From Bacteroidota bacterium (GTDB lineage: Bacteria; Bacteroidota; Bacteroidia; Sphingobacteriales; Sphingobacteriaceae): DNA of 64,000 nt. Numbering within the stretch: the stretch's first letter is position 1; each line of letters begins with the position of its first letter. Location of the stretch: assembly GCA_013288685.1 (NCBI GenBank), contig JABDBM010000008.1:1-64000 (forward strand), given 5' to 3'. Made by a program: the position numbers and the translations under genes. Positions 3,241 through 63,447 of this stretch are shown piece by piece. The notes under the pieces were generated by a model, which was not told the origin of the DNA, did not search any database, and saw nothing but the letters and a program-made list of their open reading frames with translations.

Positions 3241-4083
3241 CTAATTCGCCTTATACACCCTCACATAATCAACATACATGCTTGCAGGCAGCTTTCCTAA
3301 ATCAACCGTTTGGCCGGGGAAATCACCCGCCACAGCCAAATTTAAAATGATAAAAAATGGTTTGTGGAATGCATCTGTACTGTTTACATTATTGGCAATA
3401 TTGCCTGTAGCGAATAAGGTATCATCAACATACCAGTTAATGGAATTTGCATCCCAATCAACCCTATAAATATGATAGGCGCTGGGCGATGAAGACAAGC
3501 TGAGGCCATATTGTGTATGATTGCCGCCCGAACTCCAGTGCATGGTGCCATAAATTAAACTGTCGGCATTTACATGCTCCATAATATCAATCTCGCCGCA
3601 GCTGGGCCAGTTTACACCGCTGTTAATATCGGCGCCCAGCATCCAAAAGGCAGGCCATAAACCGGCACCCATGGGCAATTTAATGCGCGCTTCAATACGG
3701 CCATAAGTGGCGTTTATCTTTTTTGACGTATTCATCCTCGCCGAAGTATACGGATAACCGGCTGTTGCCTCGGCTTTGGCGGTTATTACTAAATTGCCAT
3801 TGGCAACAGTGGCGTTTTCGGCTTTGTAATATTCTTTTTCGTTGTTATAGGCGCTGCCGGTTTCAAAATTCCAGTTAGCAGTATCAACAGCGGTACCATT
3901 AAACTCATCCGACCAGACCAAAGAGTAAGTAGTGGGCGTAGTTGGTAATGTATCCAACGGCGGCGGAATGATAATTGTGTTCCCATTATCATTGGCCGGC
4001 GATTTTTTGCAGGCAGCCACAAGTAATACAAGCGCCAGTACAATACCGGCGCTTGTTATCAGGTTAAAATGGTTTTTTCTCAT
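3241..4083 (-). CDS. GH16 family endo-beta-1,3-glucanase-like lipoprotein
   Basis: Second GH16 lipoprotein, 280 residues. The lipobox Cys is C25 (LVAAC-KK). A short Pro/Thr linker (40-52) precedes the catalytic domain (53-280). GEIDIMEH supplies nucleophile E164 and acid/base E169, with WPAFWML upstream and the same VDYVRVYKAN terminus as its neighbour. It should hydrolyse internal beta-1,3-glucan bonds outside or in the periplasm. All three GH16 genes point the same way with gaps of 90-160 bp that hold short inverted repeats, so they could be one transcript. Confidence 0.93.
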   Translation of the reverse strand: MRKNHFNLITSAGIVLALVLLVAACKKSPANDNGNTIIIPPPLDTLPTTPTTYSLVWSDEFNGTAVDTANWNFETGSAYNNEKEYYKAENATVANGNLVITAKAEATAGYPYTSARMNTSKKINATYGRIEARIKLPMGAGLWPAFWMLGADINSGVNWPSCGEIDIMEHVNADSLIYGTMHWSSGGNHTQYGLSLSSSPSAYHIYRVDWDANSINWYVDDTLFATGNIANNVNSTDAFHKPFFIILNLAVAGDFPGQTVDLGKLPASMYVDYVRVYKAN

Positions 4084-4119
4084 AACAAATTGGTTACTAA
4101 TGTAACTAATTTTTGTTGA

Positions 4120-4232
4120 TTAAGTTTATTGAGTTGATTAGGTTGGATTAAGTTGATTGAGTTGGCTTGTCGTTCAACTTAATCCACCACTCACTTAATC
4201 TAACTCAATCAACCACTCATCTAATCAACCCC
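4120..4232. repeat. Tandem ttgattgagttg-type repeat with hairpin
   Basis: The gap holds repeated words of the type agttgatt and their complements. A perfect 12-bp inverted repeat (ggattaagttga at 4145-4156, tcaacttaatcc at 4174-4185) forms the core. Related words appear near 2275-2310, 11690-11735 and 32935-32950. It lies 3' of the GH16-trefoil gene on the minus strand and may act as an mRNA-end hairpin, but it lacks a T tract. Confidence 0.5.
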
Positions 4233-4235
4233 GCC

Positions 4236-5474
4236 TCATTTATTAACCCCAAATGACTCCCATCCCGATGCCGTGGCGCGGTTACAAGTCATTGGTTGTG
4301 TACCGTTCTCGCTGGATACAAATTTGCCGTTATTGCCCTGCAGGGTTATCGTGCCATCGGCATTGGTACCCCAGGTAAAGGTTTCCCATGCACCAACGGT
4401 TGTGCGGTTACAGGTTATGGCCTGCGTGCCGTTTTCGCTGGATACATATTTACCCATGCTTTGCAGGGCAACCTTGCCGCCGCCTTCGTCAACTACTAAA
4501 AACTGTTCCCATGTTGATGCTGTAGGGCGGTTACAGTTCATGGCTTGGGTGCCATTTTCGCCGCTCACATAATCGTTGTTAAAACCTTTTAAGGTGATGG
4601 TTTGGCCAATTGGCGGCCCGCTTGTGGTTACTGCTTTGTAAACGCGCACATAATCAACATACATATTTGCCGGCAGCGCGCCCGTATTTACAGTTTGCCC
4701 CGGAAAATCGCCGGCAACGGCCATATTCAGGATAATATAAAACGGATTTTGAAATGCGCCGGTATTATTAATATTGTTTGCAATGTTTGCTGTGGCATAT
4801 AAAGTATTATCAACCCACCAGGTTATAGATTGGTTATCCCATTGAACGGCATACAGGTGGTAAGCGTTGGCATTGGTGCTGGTAGTACCTCCGTATTGCG
4901 TTGCGCCGTTATTGTACCAGTGGATAGTTCCATAAATGGTGTTGCTGGTATTTATTTGTTCCAAAATATCAATTTCGCCGCATTGGGGCCAGCCAACTGA
5001 CCCAATATTGGTGCCCAGCATCCAGAATGCGGGCCACGAACCTTGAAATTGGGGCACCTTGATACTCGCCTCGATCCGGCCGTATTGGGCCGAAAACTTT
5101 CCTGAGGTTTCCAGCTTGCCCGAAGTATATGGCTGCCCGCCAACACTCTGATTTTTTGCAGTAATAACCAAATTGCCACCGGTTACGGCAACATTGGCCG
5201 ACTGGTAGTATTCTTTTTCGTTGTTTACGCCTGGGTTGCCATTGTCGATGTTCCATTTACTGCCATCAACACTGGTGCCGTTAAACTCATCCGACCAAAC
5301 GAGTTGATAGGTGACCGCCCTCGGTTCGGTAGTTTGCGATTGCTCCGTTGCAACGGCAGCAGTTTCGGGACCTTTTAACGGACTGCTGACATCCTTTTTG
5401 CAGGAAGCAACCGTGCTTACCAGTGCCAGTACTATACCGGCCCCGGTTAAAAAGTTGAAGAGTTGTTTTTTCAT
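4236..5474 (-). CDS. GH16 glucanase lipoprotein with C-terminal fascin-like beta-trefoil
   Basis: A 412-residue lipoprotein with lipobox C25 (TVASC-KK). The GH16 domain spans about 53-281 with GEIDILEQ (nucleophile E167, acid/base E172) and WPAFWML; note Gln instead of His after the acid/base motif. A short GPPIGQ linker (287-291) leads into a module of about 120 residues made of three repeats, each with a YVSGENGT-x-AMxCxR-x3-WEQF pattern. This is the fascin-like beta-trefoil type, probably a carbohydrate-binding module. Almost the same module ends the next gene (GH30). The enzyme probably acts on the same branched beta-glucan as its neighbours, with the trefoil holding it to the polymer; binding is inferred. 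Confidence 0.92.
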   Translation of the reverse strand: MKKQLFNFLTGAGIVLALVSTVASCKKDVSSPLKGPETAAVATEQSQTTEPRAVTYQLVWSDEFNGTSVDGSKWNIDNGNPGVNNEKEYYQSANVAVTGGNLVITAKNQSVGGQPYTSGKLETSGKFSAQYGRIEASIKVPQFQGSWPAFWMLGTNIGSVGWPQCGEIDILEQINTSNTIYGTIHWYNNGATQYGGTTSTNANAYHLYAVQWDNQSITWWVDNTLYATANIANNINNTGAFQNPFYIILNMAVAGDFPGQTVNTGALPANMYVDYVRVYKAVTTSGPPIGQTITLKGFNNDYVSGENGTQAMNCNRPTASTWEQFLVVDEGGGKVALQSMGKYVSSENGTQAITCNRTTVGAWETFTWGTNADGTITLQGNNGKFVSSENGTQPMTCNRATASGWESFGVNK

Positions 5475-58992: not shown

Positions 58993-59087
58993 AGATATTT
59001 CTTTAGAAATCTGCACAGCATCCCCTACCCGACTCCAGCAGGAATAAATTAAAAATCTACTCAAAAACCGACTGTCATTGTTGCACG

Positions 59088-59159
59088 AGGTCAGTACCGG
59101 ATTCGAACCGGTACAATGCGGTTTTGCAGACCGCCCCCTTACCATTCGGGCAACTGACC
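59088..59159 (-). tRNA. tRNA-Cys (GCA)
   Basis: Cloverleaf on the minus strand: acceptor ggtcagt/actgacc with U73 (right for Cys), D arm with cccg/gggg and aatggtaa loop, anticodon stem gcggt around ctGCAaa, T arm ccgg-ttcgaat-ccgg. The 3' CCA is not encoded. Last gene of a four-tRNA array. Confidence 0.95.
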
Positions 59160-59164
59160 GTTAG

Positions 59165-59237
59165 TGGAGAACCCGGGTAACGATCCCGGATATTCGGATT
59201 TTCAGTCCGGCGCATACACCATGTTTGCTAATTCTCC
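59165..59237 (-). tRNA. tRNA-Phe (GAA) with an abnormal T loop
   Basis: Acceptor ggagaat/gttctcc pairs over 7 bp with one U-G, A73. Anticodon loop ctGAAaa gives Phe. The T stem ccggg/cccgg is perfect, but its loop reads atcgtta, where the normal T54 and A58 are replaced by A and T (an exchange that keeps pairing). The D stem has three pairs, and position 27-43 is mismatched. Only 5 bp from tRNA-Cys. Confidence 0.75.
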
Positions 59238-59297
59238 TTTCATGCGCTATTAGATTTGTCAACTTTTTAAAAGTTCACAAATCGTCCTGTACCACGG

Positions 59298-59370
59298 TGG
59301 AAATAAAAGGGCTTGAACCTTTAACCGGCACCGTATAAGGGTGTTGCTCTAACCATTGAGCTATATTTCC
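59298..59370 (-). tRNA. tRNA-Ile (UAU), unusual AUA decoder
   Basis: Acceptor ggaaata/tatttcc is perfect with A73; D arm gctc-aatggtta-gagc; anticodon stem cacc/ggtg with loop ctTATac; T arm aaagg-ttcaagc-ccttt with canonical loop. Anticodon TAT reads AUA. Bacteria normally decode AUA with a CAU tRNA modified to lysidine, so a UAU isoacceptor is rare. Confidence 0.82.
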
Positions 59371-59436
59371 AATAAAAAAACCGCCGTCTTTTTCAGACTT
59401 TAGACTTAAAAACTAAAGACTCAAGACTTCTCAACG

Positions 59437-59509
59437 TAGGGTAACCCGGACTCGAACCGGGAGCCTCATGCTTCCAAAGCACGTAATCTGCCAATTGATA
59501 TACTACCCT
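59437..59509 (-). tRNA. tRNA-Pro (UGG)
   Basis: Acceptor agggtag/ttaccct with A73 and one G-U; D loop aattggca; anticodon stem cgtgc/gcatg around ttTGGaa; T arm cccgg-ttcgagt-ccggg. First gene of the minus-strand array. Between it and tRNA-Ile is a stretch with agactt repeat words (59395-59435). Confidence 0.9.
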
Positions 59510-59560: not shown

Positions 59561-60275
59561 ACGTATCTTGTTTATGTTAAGTCAATACATAGCCTATCCC
59601 CTCTGATAAATCAGTTGCGGTATAAAGCACGGTATTGTTGTTCTGTTCATGGCACAATGATACACATTATTTTAATAAATAAAGAATTTCTTTAAAATAT
59701 TTTTTTATTACATAATCGTTTTGCCATCTGTGATAGTCTGCGTTGTTTTTGAACAAAGTACCGCGCAGAGTCCGCTTCCGATTTAAGGTAACGCATAAAA
59801 TGCAAAATCGCTAATTCACCAGTCGTTCCGATGGAGCGTAAAAACCTGAAAAATGCACGTCCCATCAAGATGCCTGGTTGGTAGAAATTGTAAAAAAATC
59901 GCGTTTTACGTTTCCATCAGAACGTTTGGTGCTATTGAAAATGCATTCCGAGACGTTCATCTGCGACATTCAGACGGCTGAGTTTTATGGGTTAACTTAA
60001 AGCTTCCGAAGGCCCCACGGGAAAGCCCAACACAATTCAAGTACAAATACTGCTGTACACCAGCGTAGTTACACCTATATAAGTTAGGTTGTAATACTTT
60101 GTAAATCAAGTGGTTTAACGCTTGGCCGGCCTTCGCGTAGCCGCTACTTTTACTCCCCACAGGGAACAAGCCGAAAACCCACATAACGCCCGGCAGGGCG
60201 TAAATGAAACAGAGTAGCAACCCGGATGCCGAAAAGGGTGAACAGAGTAAGCAAACCATACAAAACTTATTTATC
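59561..60275. other. 715-bp non-coding stretch between tRNA array and peptide gene
   Basis: No protein gene is supported. It contains an imperfect long inverted repeat (cgttccgatggagcgtaaaa near 59824-59843, ttttacgtttccatcagaacg near 59904-59924) and an 8-bp perfect pair cgaaggcc (60007-60014) / ggccttcg (60128-60135) enclosing 113 bp, which could close a structured RNA. The 119-codon minus frame at 59957-60316 crosses these structures and is judged spurious. Confidence 0.45.
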
Positions 60276-60494
60276 ATGGAAACTAAAAGAACATTTTCAA
60301 AAGAACGCGTCATCACTGTGGCAACATCCTCTAAATTAACCCTCGATCAAACTTTGCAGATAACCAAAGATGTACTGGGCCATGTAGGATGTCCGCATTG
60401 TTTTTCGGGCTTTAAATTTAATTTTACCGATGAAGGCGAAATGATCAATGCCCGTTTAAATGTGGACGGTCAAATAAATGTTTCATCCTTTTAA
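60276..60494 (+). CDS. 72-residue CPHC peptide, candidate RiPP precursor
   Basis: From the ATG at 60276 (METKRTFSKE...), 72 residues without signal peptide. The first 35 residues look like a helical leader (KLTLDQTLQITKDVLGHV); then GCPHCFSGFKFNF with C39 and C42, and a polar tail to SSF. The stop is 12 bp before the TTG start of an MNIO-family enzyme. MNIO enzymes modify Cys- or other core residues of small peptides, so this is a plausible substrate. The longer frame from 60204 lacks support. Confidence 0.7.
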   Translation: METKRTFSKERVITVATSSKLTLDQTLQITKDVLGHVGCPHCFSGFKFNFTDEGEMINARLNVDGQINVSSF

Positions 60495-60506
60495 AACCTA
60501 AGCGCT

Positions 60507-62006
60507 TTGAAAAACTTGAATGAACTCGGCGTAGGACTGGTGTATTTTCAGGGCTTTGAGCGCTTTTTGGAATCGCATTCATCGTTAATTGATATAGTAG
60601 AAATTGAACCGCAAACCTTTTGGTACGACAAAAATGATGAATGCGCTTCTTTTAAATTTGACGAAGCAGTAACCGGCTTTCTGCAACATTACCCCCGCCC
60701 TAAGCTTTTCCATGGGGTAGGTTACCCCGTTGGCGGCACCTGGCTTGCCCCGCAGGCCCATTTTAATACCCTGAGGCAACAGGCAGAGACCCTGCAGCCC
60801 GAGTGGATAAGTGAACATCTCAGCTTCAATATTTTTACCGAATACGGCGCCGACGTCAATTCGGGCTTTTTGCTGCCGCCGCTGCAATCATCAGCAGGCA
60901 TAGCAACCGCTGTAGCCAATATACAACATTACCGCGCGGCAATGGACCGTCCGTTTGCCTTTGAAACCGGCGTAAACTATTTGCAGCCCCGCAAAAATGA
61001 AATACCCGATGGTCTGTTTACCGCCAAAATTGCCGAACAAGCCGACTGTCATATTTTACTCGATTTACACAATATTCTCACCAACCAGCGAAACGGCCGG
61101 CAATCCGTTAAAGACTTTGTTAATTCGTTGCCGCTTGAGCGGGTGATTGAACTGCATGTAGGCGGCGGCATCTATTATAAGGATTATTACCTGGACGCTC
61201 ACAGCGGCCCGTCTGACGATGAGCTATTCGGCATATTGGATGATGTAGCAGGCATGTTACCCAACCTTAAAGCGCTGATGTTTGAAATTAATCCCGATTA
61301 TTTAGTAAAAGTTCCCGAAGCGGCCATAACAGAGCAGTTGATAAAAATGCATCGAATTTGGGATAAACGGGGGCGCTTGCTTAAAAAATCGATAAAGCCT
61401 GCCCCAGAAAATACACCATCATTTAACGAAAGCCTATCAGTACCCGAATGGGAAACTACCCTCGGCAACCTGGTTTTGGGCAGAGTGCCCCAGTTTGCTG
61501 CATCACCTGTTCAGGAGCCAACGCCCGTGCTTACTGACGAATTAATACAAGACCCGGGAATAACCATTATAAAAGACCTGATTTTTAACTTTCGCGGATC
61601 GGTTTTGGTTACCGTACTAAAACTAAGTACACGGCTACTACGTCTGTCGGTTGGCGAGGCGGCTTTTAATACCTGCATCAACAACTTTTTTGCCAGCGCA
61701 GTTCCCGAATTGCTACCCGTAATAGTAGCCACACAATTTTTTGAATATGTGAAAGCAAACCAACTAATGGGCCCGCGCCTGCAAAAAGTGCTGGAATACG
61801 AGATAGCTGCTATCCATACCGCAATAGACCAGCAACCGCGCACTGTCAGCTTCGATTTCGACCCATTGCCGCTTTTAGCCGCTTTGCAGGACGCACGCCT
61901 GCCCGGCGGGCCTGTGGTGAAACGGCCTGTAAATCTCCAAATAGTATCCGACCAGGCGGTGGTGACTCACGAACAACTCAATTTTAGCCCCGTATTTCAC
62001 GTTTGA
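60507..62006 (+). CDS. MNIO (DUF692) oxidase fused to HvfC/DUF2063-like domain
   Basis: A 499-residue protein starting at a TTG (no in-frame ATG near). Residues about 1-290 are a DUF692/MNIO TIM barrel, a multinuclear non-heme iron enzyme that oxidatively modifies peptides; candidate metal ligands are H69 (LFHGVGYPVGG), E103/H104 (WISEHLSF), E153 (FETGVNYL), D186/H188 (LLDLHNI), H217 (ELHVGGG), H232 (DAHSGPSDDE) and E260 (MFEINPDYL). Residues about 350-465 resemble HvfC/DUF2063 partner proteins (FNFRGSVLVTVLKLSTRLLRLSVGEAAFNTC, FFEYVKANQ, LQKVLEYEIAAIH). Normally these are two genes (hvfB, hvfC); here they are one chain. Target is probably the CPHC peptide upstream. Confidence 0.85.
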   Translation: MKNLNELGVGLVYFQGFERFLESHSSLIDIVEIEPQTFWYDKNDECASFKFDEAVTGFLQHYPRPKLFHGVGYPVGGTWLAPQAHFNTLRQQAETLQPEWISEHLSFNIFTEYGADVNSGFLLPPLQSSAGIATAVANIQHYRAAMDRPFAFETGVNYLQPRKNEIPDGLFTAKIAEQADCHILLDLHNILTNQRNGRQSVKDFVNSLPLERVIELHVGGGIYYKDYYLDAHSGPSDDELFGILDDVAGMLPNLKALMFEINPDYLVKVPEAAITEQLIKMHRIWDKRGRLLKKSIKPAPENTPSFNESLSVPEWETTLGNLVLGRVPQFAASPVQEPTPVLTDELIQDPGITIIKDLIFNFRGSVLVTVLKLSTRLLRLSVGEAAFNTCINNFFASAVPELLPVIVATQFFEYVKANQLMGPRLQKVLEYEIAAIHTAIDQQPRTVSFDFDPLPLLAALQDARLPGGPVVKRPVNLQIVSDQAVVTHEQLNFSPVFHV

Positions 62007-62124: not shown

Positions 62125-62196
62125 GGCCCGTTCGTCTAGGGGTTAGGACGTAAGATTTTCATTCTTGAAACAGGGGTTCGATTCCCCTACGGGCTA
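62125..62196 (+). tRNA. tRNA-Glu (UUC)
   Basis: Acceptor ggcccgt/acgggct with A73; D arm gtct-aggggtta-ggac; anticodon loop ttTTCat; T arm agggg-ttcgatt-cccct. The CCA is not encoded. Own promoter at 62062 and terminator at 62199. Confidence 0.96.
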
Positions 62197-62198
62197 CG

Positions 62199-62899: not shown

Positions 62900-63311
62900 G
62901 ACCAATGGGCAATATTCTGTAATGTATTGATAGTCAGGCGTTCCAAATTGCAACCTTTTAATGCATCATTGTAACTTATTTACTATCAATACATTAACGA
63001 AAAACCGGGGAATTTCTTACACACTTCTACCGGTCTCGTACGGTTATGGGTTTACACTTTAAGGATTAATCCTGTTTTAGGTTTACACTTAACTCTTGTC
63101 GTTTTTTATAATTTTTGCTGCATCCTTTTTTAATCACCGCTGTGCGAAGCTGTGACTTCGGATAGACTATTCCTGTAGGCCTACTACAGGGTGTTAAGTT
63201 TGCCGCTGATATTTTCTATTTAAATTGGCTGATGAACCTAAGTGGGCAAACATAATCATGGCCCGGTATTACATACTACCGGCATAGTGCGTCCGCAGAT
63301 GGATGCTACCC

Positions 63312-63447
63312 CCGCCAGTTCAAGTGTCCACACTTGAACTCATGAAATTTTGAGCGTCCACGCTCCTGTCGATAAATTAACGTGGCATCATGAGCGTGGA
63401 CGCTCAAAACGTTATTCAGCCAAGCGGGGACGCTTGGCTGGGCGGGT
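63312..63447. repeat. Multi-hairpin repeat on gtccac/gtggac palindromes (copy 2)
   Basis: Same order as at 37975-38176: caagtgtccacacttg (63321-63336), gagcgtccacgctc (63352-63365), gagcgtggacgctc (63392-63405), gccaagcggggacgcttggc (63419-63438), then tgggcgg. The spacing between the middle palindromes is shorter here. Confidence 0.88.

Follow-up and report, generated by a model that had tools for sequence, protein, structure and literature searches.

Background

Most MNIO (DUF692) enzymes work only together with PME partner proteins, the exceptions being MovX, which has a fused RRE, and ChrH, which has an extra domain (PMC13419390). In the pearlin pathway, TglH and its PME-type 2 partner TglI excise a carbon from a C-terminal cysteine; ChrH-family clusters of Bacteroidota need contain no more than a precursor with CPxCGxG and an MNIO to which a helical bundle is fused, and in a cyanobacterial cluster the ChrH-type bundle is a separate, required protein (PMC12636315). 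PME-type 2 proteins have a DUF2063-like fold without the Pfam signature, Hvf and Buf precursors carry Sec signals, and bufferins contain 4 or 6 conserved cysteines (PMC12452194). Here we analyse a stretch of 64,000 nucleotides from a member of Sphingobacteriaceae (Bacteroidota), hereafter the window (positions 1 to 64,000 of contig JABDBM010000008.1, assembly GCA_013288685.1). Near its end, a gene for a small cysteine-containing peptide directly precedes a gene for an MNIO whose C-terminal half is predicted to resemble MNIO partners. We propose that the two genes probably constitute a compact modification cassette, in which the partner domain is supplied in cis and one or both of the cysteines in a CPxCxSG motif of the adjacent peptide are oxidised.

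Results

Gene pair and its conservation

The window had been read before from its letters only. This sequence-only reading proposed a 72-residue peptide with a GCPHCFSG core and, 12 bp downstream, an oxidase fused to its partner; both open reading frames are found where it had placed them (Table 1). The peptide reads METKRTFSKERVITVATSSKLTLDQTLQITKDVLGHVGCPHCFSGFKFNFTDEGEMINARLNVDGQINVSSF. The TTG start codon of the enzyme lies 12 bp past the peptide stop codon, and a TTG stands at the equivalent place in loci L004, L005, L006 and L009. The fusion is one uninterrupted frame in the window and in 9 homologues.

Table 1. Coordinates of the cassette, of related peptide genes and of the shared chromosomal site
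Feature	Sequence	Position	Strand	Basis or remark
Peptide gene, putative MNIO substrate	window	60276..60494	+	translation, 72 aa; kept in 8/8 relatives
GCPHCFSGF motif, peptide residues 38-46	window	60387..60413	+	proposed modification site; CPxC[YFH]SGF conservation
MNIO-partner fusion enzyme (putative partner half), 499 aa, TTG start	window	60507..62006	+	translation; full-length homologues L003-L009, L069, L065
MNIO TIM-barrel half, about aa 1-290	window	60507..61376	+	PF05114; TglH fold match
Predicted C-terminal partner-type domain, about aa 310-488	window	61434..61970	+	AlphaFold2 model: helical bundle, short strand-helix-strand end
DUF805b cis-regulatory RNA, Rfam RF02914	window	60219..60253	+	cmscan; 5' leader of peptide gene
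Motif-less paralogue	L003	5340-5558		just upstream of a cassette
Motif-less paralogue	L010	5345-5563		just upstream of a cassette
Motif-less paralogue	L069	8749-8967		just upstream of a cassette
Motif-less paralogue	L060	1498-1716		directly downstream of enzyme
Motif-less paralogue	L066 (L045/L066)	4067-4285		window's own genome, G000 contig 177
Further motif-less paralogues	L055, L056, L057, L061			
Shared chromosomal site	L069	5594-12079		order: S9 peptidase (opposite strand), GNAT, peptide(s), enzyme, FAD oxidoreductase; also L055 and flanks of L003-L010 except L006

A first contig scan returned eight relatives, 61-72% identical and labelled Mucilaginibacter or Bacteroidetes. The peptide lies directly upstream of the enzyme in all eight, with a gap of 5-18 nt to the likely start codon, and the same pairing recurs in genome G699, in G751 (where the enzyme is cut short) and in the distant G567. 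The neighbourhood survey thus bears out the conserved pair of Cys peptide and fusion that the sequence-only reading had expected. The pairing is more than chance, because it is present in 8/8 relatives and because the ratio of nonsynonymous to synonymous substitution rates (dN/dS) of the peptide is well under 1. Among 11 cassette peptides it was 0.04-0.41 in computable pairs (the dN/dS sets are without the G567 peptide and paralogue L057); cassette peptides are under purifying selection.

The two-gene unit occurs in some soil bacteria and is rare. A peptide-profile search of the genus was positive in 14 of 149 genomes. In 11 of the 14 the Cys peptide adjoins an enzyme (truncated in G751, cut by the contig end in L010), and in the other three only a motif-less paralogue was found. 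Full-length fusions were found in 3 of the 301 family genomes drawn and in 2 of 394 genomes of the phylum. The latter include G567, from a different family, whose peptide (NCPACHSGF) lies 2 nt before a 488-residue fusion that is 37% identical to the window enzyme. A peptide match in G364 (E 0.0098) was taken as chance. The G567 peptide had no match on plasmids, MNIO matches in 319 plasmid records never covered 80% of the query, and viral contigs yielded no confirmed relative of the enzyme; hence there is no sign of a mobile carrier.

The peptide and its cysteine motif

The motif CPxC[YFH]SGF is retained in all 12 cassette peptides and is absent from all nine paralogues outside the cassette role, one of which keeps a single cysteine. 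The Cys motif therefore goes with the enzyme (12/12 vs 0/9). Eight of these nine were tested; their dN/dS was 0.05-0.23 where computable, many pairs having saturated dS. Three paralogues reside in genomes that yielded no cassette peptide. Since motif-less paralogues persist under purifying selection, the scaffold has some function for which Cys modification is not required. By eye, an upstream stretch CAGGTACTTYCCC...CCTTTA...GAGCAGGGCGCTC is common to some motif-less paralogues and cassettes.

The sequence-only reading took the peptide for a leader followed by a core. The peptide does not look that way: a scaffold of about 60 residues is conserved, also in paralogues that have no Cys motif, in contrast to textbook precursors, whose leader is conserved and whose core varies. 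The 12 cassette copies are conserved along their length except for the last ~10 residues, and in the window peptide the motif ends 26 residues before the C-terminus. That the precursor is unlike bufferins was right, as its N-terminus (METKRTFSKERVITVATSSK) contains no hydrophobic stretch and does not resemble a signal peptide by eye, and only two cysteines are present. On these grounds a bufferin or oxazolin assignment of the peptide was rejected. No credible match was found in Pfam or NCBIfam, and the only two matches of the peptide profile in the PDB (E 0.12 and 0.92) were taken as chance. The low-confidence model of the peptide has the order strand-helix-loop-strand-strand, and the peptide is probably a small folded protein.

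The MNIO barrel

An MNIO domain in the N-terminal half of the enzyme is certain. PF05114 matches residues 17-257 with a score of 119 bits (cut-off 25 bits; E 2.2e-34), in agreement with the earlier assignment of the first ~290 residues to DUF692. Five NCBIfam models gave matches, BufB the highest (103 bits, far under its cut-off of 310), followed by ApyH, HvfB, ChrH and MbnB. Joined structure prediction of peptide and enzyme, proposed earlier as a check, succeeded in part: the barrel is usable, and the peptide part is poor and holds no docking information. In the joined-chain predicted model the barrel resembles TglH (8hci_B) with Z 24.5 over 273 residues; 3bww and MbnB come next (Z 24.4-20.9, MbnB entries 22.0-20.9), and then the isomerase IolI (16.6).

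The residues that had been named as metal ligands (H69, E153, D186, H188, H217, H232 and E260) are intact. Together with D230 they are invariant in 10/10 fusion proteins, down to 37% identity; these alignments are without L010, whose contig ends after 98 residues of the enzyme, and without the truncated enzyme of G751 (L070). At position 188 the fusions have His, whereas 24 of the 26 rows for stand-alone MNIOs show Asn. The two exceptions with His are ChrH/DybH-type enzymes (DybH-type L034 and L035), and in the alignment TglH also has His here, within LDLHN. In HvfB, N175, D242 and H244 are predicted ligands of the third iron site, as listed in PMC13419390; N175 is probably the equivalent of H188 in the fusion. 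E260 stands opposite gaps in 24/26 stand-alone rows, apparently an effect of where gaps were set next to the LLEWD/LLERD stretch of these rows.

The C-terminal half

The likening of the C-terminal half to HvfC/DUF2063 stood for the predicted fold and fell for the sequence signature. For residues 289-499 of the window enzyme Pfam returned no family at E<=10, DUF2063 included. One of ten fusion homologues matched DUF2063 with E 0.15; the four proteins that served as controls, all partners of stand-alone MNIOs from the family, match it with E 9e-11 to 9e-17. Membership in the DUF2063 family by sequence was rejected from these results and from the profile comparison given below.

We predicted the C-terminal half alone by AlphaFold2 from 10 homologues (mean pLDDT 75.9). 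The top four Foldseek matches of the model among 350,542 chains were NGO1945, TglI (two entries) and MbnC, all of them MNIO partners. VIA-align gave Z 11.8 for TglI (170 residues, root-mean-square deviation 4.5), 9.2 for NGO1945 and 5.8 and 5.6 for MbnC. NGO1945 and TglI take the first three places in this comparison, MbnC ranks fifth and sixth, and two unrelated chains reach Z 5.9 and 5.4. Because the top of the list consists of MNIO partners and is well clear of other rows, kinship to these partners is suggested. The fold is suggestive of the MNIO-partner type and in the model looks nearest to that of TglI, that is, PME-type-2-like. After the bundle the model shows a strand-helix-strand only (residues 445-479), with its end at low confidence; an RRE may be represented by a short remnant at most.

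The DUF805b leader

A DUF805b RNA element ends 22 nt before the peptide start (cmscan, 40.4 bits, gathering threshold 35.6, E 5e-10). It exceeds the threshold at the same place in 7 of the 8 relatives (L004 scores below, 30.9 bits), and its core is present in L069. With a limit of E<=1, no element turned up ahead of the G751 peptide, in the motif-less paralogue loci L055, L056, L057, L060, L061 and L066, or in G567. The element matches in 50 of 61 Mucilaginibacter genomes, in 37 of them over the cut-off. In all 29 loci examined an ATG frame of at least 40 residues starts 10-66 nt past the element, a figure that comes without a chance control; these are high-scoring sites, mostly one per genome (L062, L076-L104), reduced from 30 to 29 by dropping L094, a short locus in which the element is not centred. 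Sixteen of the 29 frames encode at most 110 residues, six of them with GG-type leaders by eye, and a DUF805b regulon of peptide products is suggested.

DUF805b is also located upstream of operons in G246 (L107) and G062 (L108). Besides an MNIO and a DUF2063 partner, these encode a ferritin-like protein of ~697 residues whose end is Cys-rich. The ferritin-like protein is a candidate large-protein substrate of MNIO. A 216-residue protein and a weak DyP-type match precede the operon in L107. Among the matches listed for ten genomes with a stand-alone MNIO, the element lies up to 5 kb upstream in G246, G062 and G121. The term DUF805b occurred in no paper of the literature searched, and its position before several MNIO and peptide operons gives a lead on the function of this RNA family.

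Chromosomal surroundings

In 8 of 12 cassette loci (L003, L004, L005, L007, L008, L009, L010 and L069) a gene for an S9/DPP-IV-type peptidase lies upstream on the opposite strand, about 0.5-1.3 kb away, and in seven of the eight a GNAT gene is situated between peptidase and peptide. A gene for a flavin adenine dinucleotide (FAD) oxidoreductase follows the enzyme in L003, L005, L009 and L069, with a short match only in L008. L070 retains a piece of the GNAT gene, and L006 covers just 3 kb upstream. None of the three genes accompanies the cassette in the window or in G567. G116 has all three together with a motif-less paralogue (L055), but the 3.2 kb covered there contain no enzyme in between. 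From this gene order, the cassette sits at an old chromosomal site within the genus, where it was either lost or inserted; in the genome of the window it lies elsewhere. The proximity of the peptidase may be mere synteny, because the gene is divergent and is present where the enzyme is absent. The earlier remark that no transporter or protease adjoins the pair is thus accurate for the window, which has tRNA genes on both sides, and does not apply to all of its relatives.

The tRNA genes comprise four on the minus strand within 59087-59509 and a plus-strand tRNA-Glu at 62125-62197. In the ten other cassette loci, no tRNA gene turned up in the stretches covered, so this linkage is not a rule. 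Further downstream, at 63311-63446 of the window, there is a 58-nt inverted repeat, 72% complementary and with nested short palindromes, which is perhaps a REP-like element.

A possible unfused relative and other MNIO loci

A DUF805b-led locus of G121 (L109, 483-2220) encodes, in this order, a 72-residue peptide (GCTACGLNG), a 282-residue MNIO and a 178-residue protein, the last two genes being 2 nt apart. The MNIO scores 99 bits against the fusion profile. The 178-residue protein scores 10.3 bits against the C-terminal profile (best of 1000 shuffles, 8.1) and surpasses 306 background frames except one, which is part of a fusion gene. The peptide obtains 9.7 bits on the profile of 12 Cys peptides (best shuffle 7.9); on the full profile its 5.1 bits are exceeded by one background frame (5.4) and one shuffle (8.6). 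These scores are only suggestive of an unfused relative of the cassette which, if real, would show the state before fusion. A search for G121-like enzymes at E<=1e-25 gave 0 of 247 genomes and has little weight, since its listing omits G121 itself.

Other MNIO loci were seen on the way. The genome of the window has a second one (G000 contig 13; L002, L067 7188-11134), with a ferritin-like protein of 458 residues, a Cys-rich protein of 195 residues, an MNIO and a DUF2063 partner as separate chains. In other Bacteroidota genomes, one of the same family, short DybA-like precursors ending in CPACGMG stand beside DybH-type MNIOs (L035 1165-2484, L105 1279-2600). In G086, of the same family, L032 (938-3399) contains a precursor-like gene with KCG repeats, an MNIO, a DUF2063 partner and a DoxX gene, and is oxazolin-like by eye.

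Discussion

Proposed mechanism

We suggest the following course of events. A DUF805b-led transcript would yield two products: a small protein that is probably folded and has no signal peptide, and an enzyme whose chain includes the partner domain. This helical domain at the C-terminus would pack against the barrel in the manner of TglI on TglH and assist in holding the substrate or letting it in. With its iron and O2, the barrel would then oxidise one of the two cysteines in the CPxCxSG loop, or both. Three points are inferred: the neighbouring peptide serves as substrate, its cysteines are the target, and the helical domain works in cis; the first is supported by conservation of the peptide. 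Since the peptide lacks a signal sequence and the two-gene unit itself encodes neither transporter nor protease, the product is most likely a small modified protein that is retained in the cell; the simplest assumption would be that it acts in metal or redox processes. As for chemistry, a ChrH-like ring closure across CPxCxxG is our tentative choice; a thiooxazole or an oxazolone-thioamide is possible and would come second, and some other reaction seems rather unlikely.

Objections and alternatives

Several observations weigh against the proposed cassette. Motif-less paralogues are under purifying selection, also in 3 of the 14 peptide-bearing genomes, where no cassette peptide was found. In G751 (L070 2524-3049) the peptide is intact, yet only residues 4-102 of the enzyme were found. 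With a peptidase near 8 of 12 cassettes, later cleavage of the peptide is possible, and the peptide part of the joined model has a pLDDT of 37-67 only. The enzyme falls outside both the ChrH-type and the bufferin-type clades of our tree, so neither chemistry can be transferred to it. The C-terminal half attracts most of the objections: its profile aligns co-linearly with four DUF2063 proteins at p 0.017, it finds no PDB chain at E<=10, two of five AlphaFold2 models exceed pLDDT 75, and the Foldseek E values are weak (0.2-0.4 for the best, 0.2-1.4 over the top four). According to the VIA-align note, moreover, helical bundles with Z below ~13 may share a common arrangement only. Were the C-terminal half a helical domain without kinship to the partners, as these figures and the lack of a Pfam match would allow, the enzyme would act alone or with an unlinked partner, for example the product of the DUF2063 gene in L002 (PF09836, E 7.8e-16). 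This gene, however, already has its own MNIO beside it. Moreover, coincidence would have to place MNIO partners alone in the top four of 350,542 chains, and Z 11.8 over 170 residues is far above the best unrelated row (5.9). We consider such a domain very unlikely.

The peptide and the enzyme subfamily leave room for two further explanations. The enzyme could be a distant branch of the ChrH/DybH subfamily that makes a macrocycle or heterocycle across CPxC. The C-P-x-C-x-x-G spacing is identical, a minimal two-gene layout without a partner gene is described there (PMC12636315), and His 188 is common to the fusion, to DybH-type L034/L035 and to TglH, against Asn in 24/26 stand-alone rows. The score on NCBIfam NF050165 (ChrH) is, however, 41.4 of 600 bits, lower than on BufB, although 600 is likewise not reached by two ChrH-type genes of the class. 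In the tree (without L075 and L106, a partial ChrH-type match) the fusion clade (100/99) is separate from the three ChrH types (100/100), on long branches that make the deep placement unsure. The C-terminal domains could not be aligned (hhalign p 0.65; about 85 residues vs about 190), and the motif is internal and has no GxG. Membership in the ChrH subfamily was rejected for these reasons, and we regard a distant ChrH-like branch as unlikely. It is somewhat less probable still that the peptide is a small folded accessory or regulator, a kind of detached recognition element, and that the true substrate is encoded elsewhere. Conservation over nearly the whole length, instead of a conserved leader and a variable core, would suit such a role, and so would paralogues that exist also without a cassette; a pseudo-enzyme regulator, PesX, is known from another MNIO cluster (PMC13060819). 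On the other hand, both cysteines and the SG are kept only in copies that adjoin the enzyme, the pattern expected of a substrate site. Further, when short frames atop larger genes are set aside, no other peptide gene recurs in more than four of the flanks of 12 loci, and the one found in four is the paralogue.

Keeping to the proposal of a modified neighbouring peptide, a wider scheme can be imagined, though we hold it to be doubtful. The fusion would modify a conserved folded mini-protein that is kept in the cell, and not a cleavable core of a ribosomally synthesized and post-translationally modified peptide (RiPP). The motif-less paralogues would be unmodifiable counterparts (pseudo-substrates, subunits or regulators), and the unit would be one member of a DUF805b-led gene set of Mucilaginibacter, alongside further MNIO operons and numerous genes for small peptides. 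If this is true, then the orphan DUF805b RNA gains its first functional context.

The cassette itself, as a two-gene, one-chain MNIO system, would be an easy test bed, offering a natural 1:1 enzyme-partner complex where that of HvfBC is artificial. Pairs of peptides that differ in having or lacking the Cys motif would make it possible to test cleanly what purpose the modification serves.

Comparison with known systems

Taken together, the cassette shares features with several described systems. TglH/TglI is similar in the barrel (Z 24.5), in the predicted partner-type domain (Z 11.8) and in the LDLHN histidine at 188. It differs in being two separate chains and in acting on a C-terminal cysteine, whereas the cassette has an internal CPxC. 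A separate partner gene after the MNIO, as in PME-type 2 systems, does not occur in the cassette and is found only in the possible relative G121. HvfB/HvfC and BufB/BufC (PME-type 1, DUF2063 plus RRE) share the enzyme superfamily and, as far as the model can tell, the fold group of the partner (NGO1945, Z 9.2); their partner, unlike ours, is a separate gene with a DUF2063 signature. The window peptide has neither the Sec signal nor the 4 or 6 cysteines of bufferin precursors.

The sequence-only reading stressed that enzyme and partner are normally separate and here are fused. The one-chain layout is supported, with a partner-type fold that is predicted. Such layouts have precedents in MovX, ChrH and the artificial HvfBC; the engineered HvfB-HvfC fusion is active (PMC13419390). 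In the part of PMC12452194 available to us, an MNIO-nitroreductase is the sole fusion named of the MNIO itself and no MNIO-partner fusion is mentioned. No paper in the literature searched combines Mucilaginibacter with DUF692, and within that literature a natural cassette with an MNIO-helical-partner fusion is not described. ChrH/DybH systems (chryseobasins, DAG-RiPPs) resemble ours in having two genes, in their occurrence in Bacteroidota, in C-P-x-C-x-x-G and in an extra C-terminal helical domain; their CPxCGxG is located at or near the precursor C-terminus, in contrast to the internal CPxC[YFH]SGF of the cassette. MovX, set beside the cassette by description only, is likewise a natural MNIO with a recognition domain in the chain, an RRE in its case and a predicted, mainly helical partner domain in ours. 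Also by description, the precursors of adjamnio-7 (cluster 7 of the MNIO network), which are signal-less, have a CxxC motif and a modelled fold (PMC12452194), resemble the cassette peptide in these respects.

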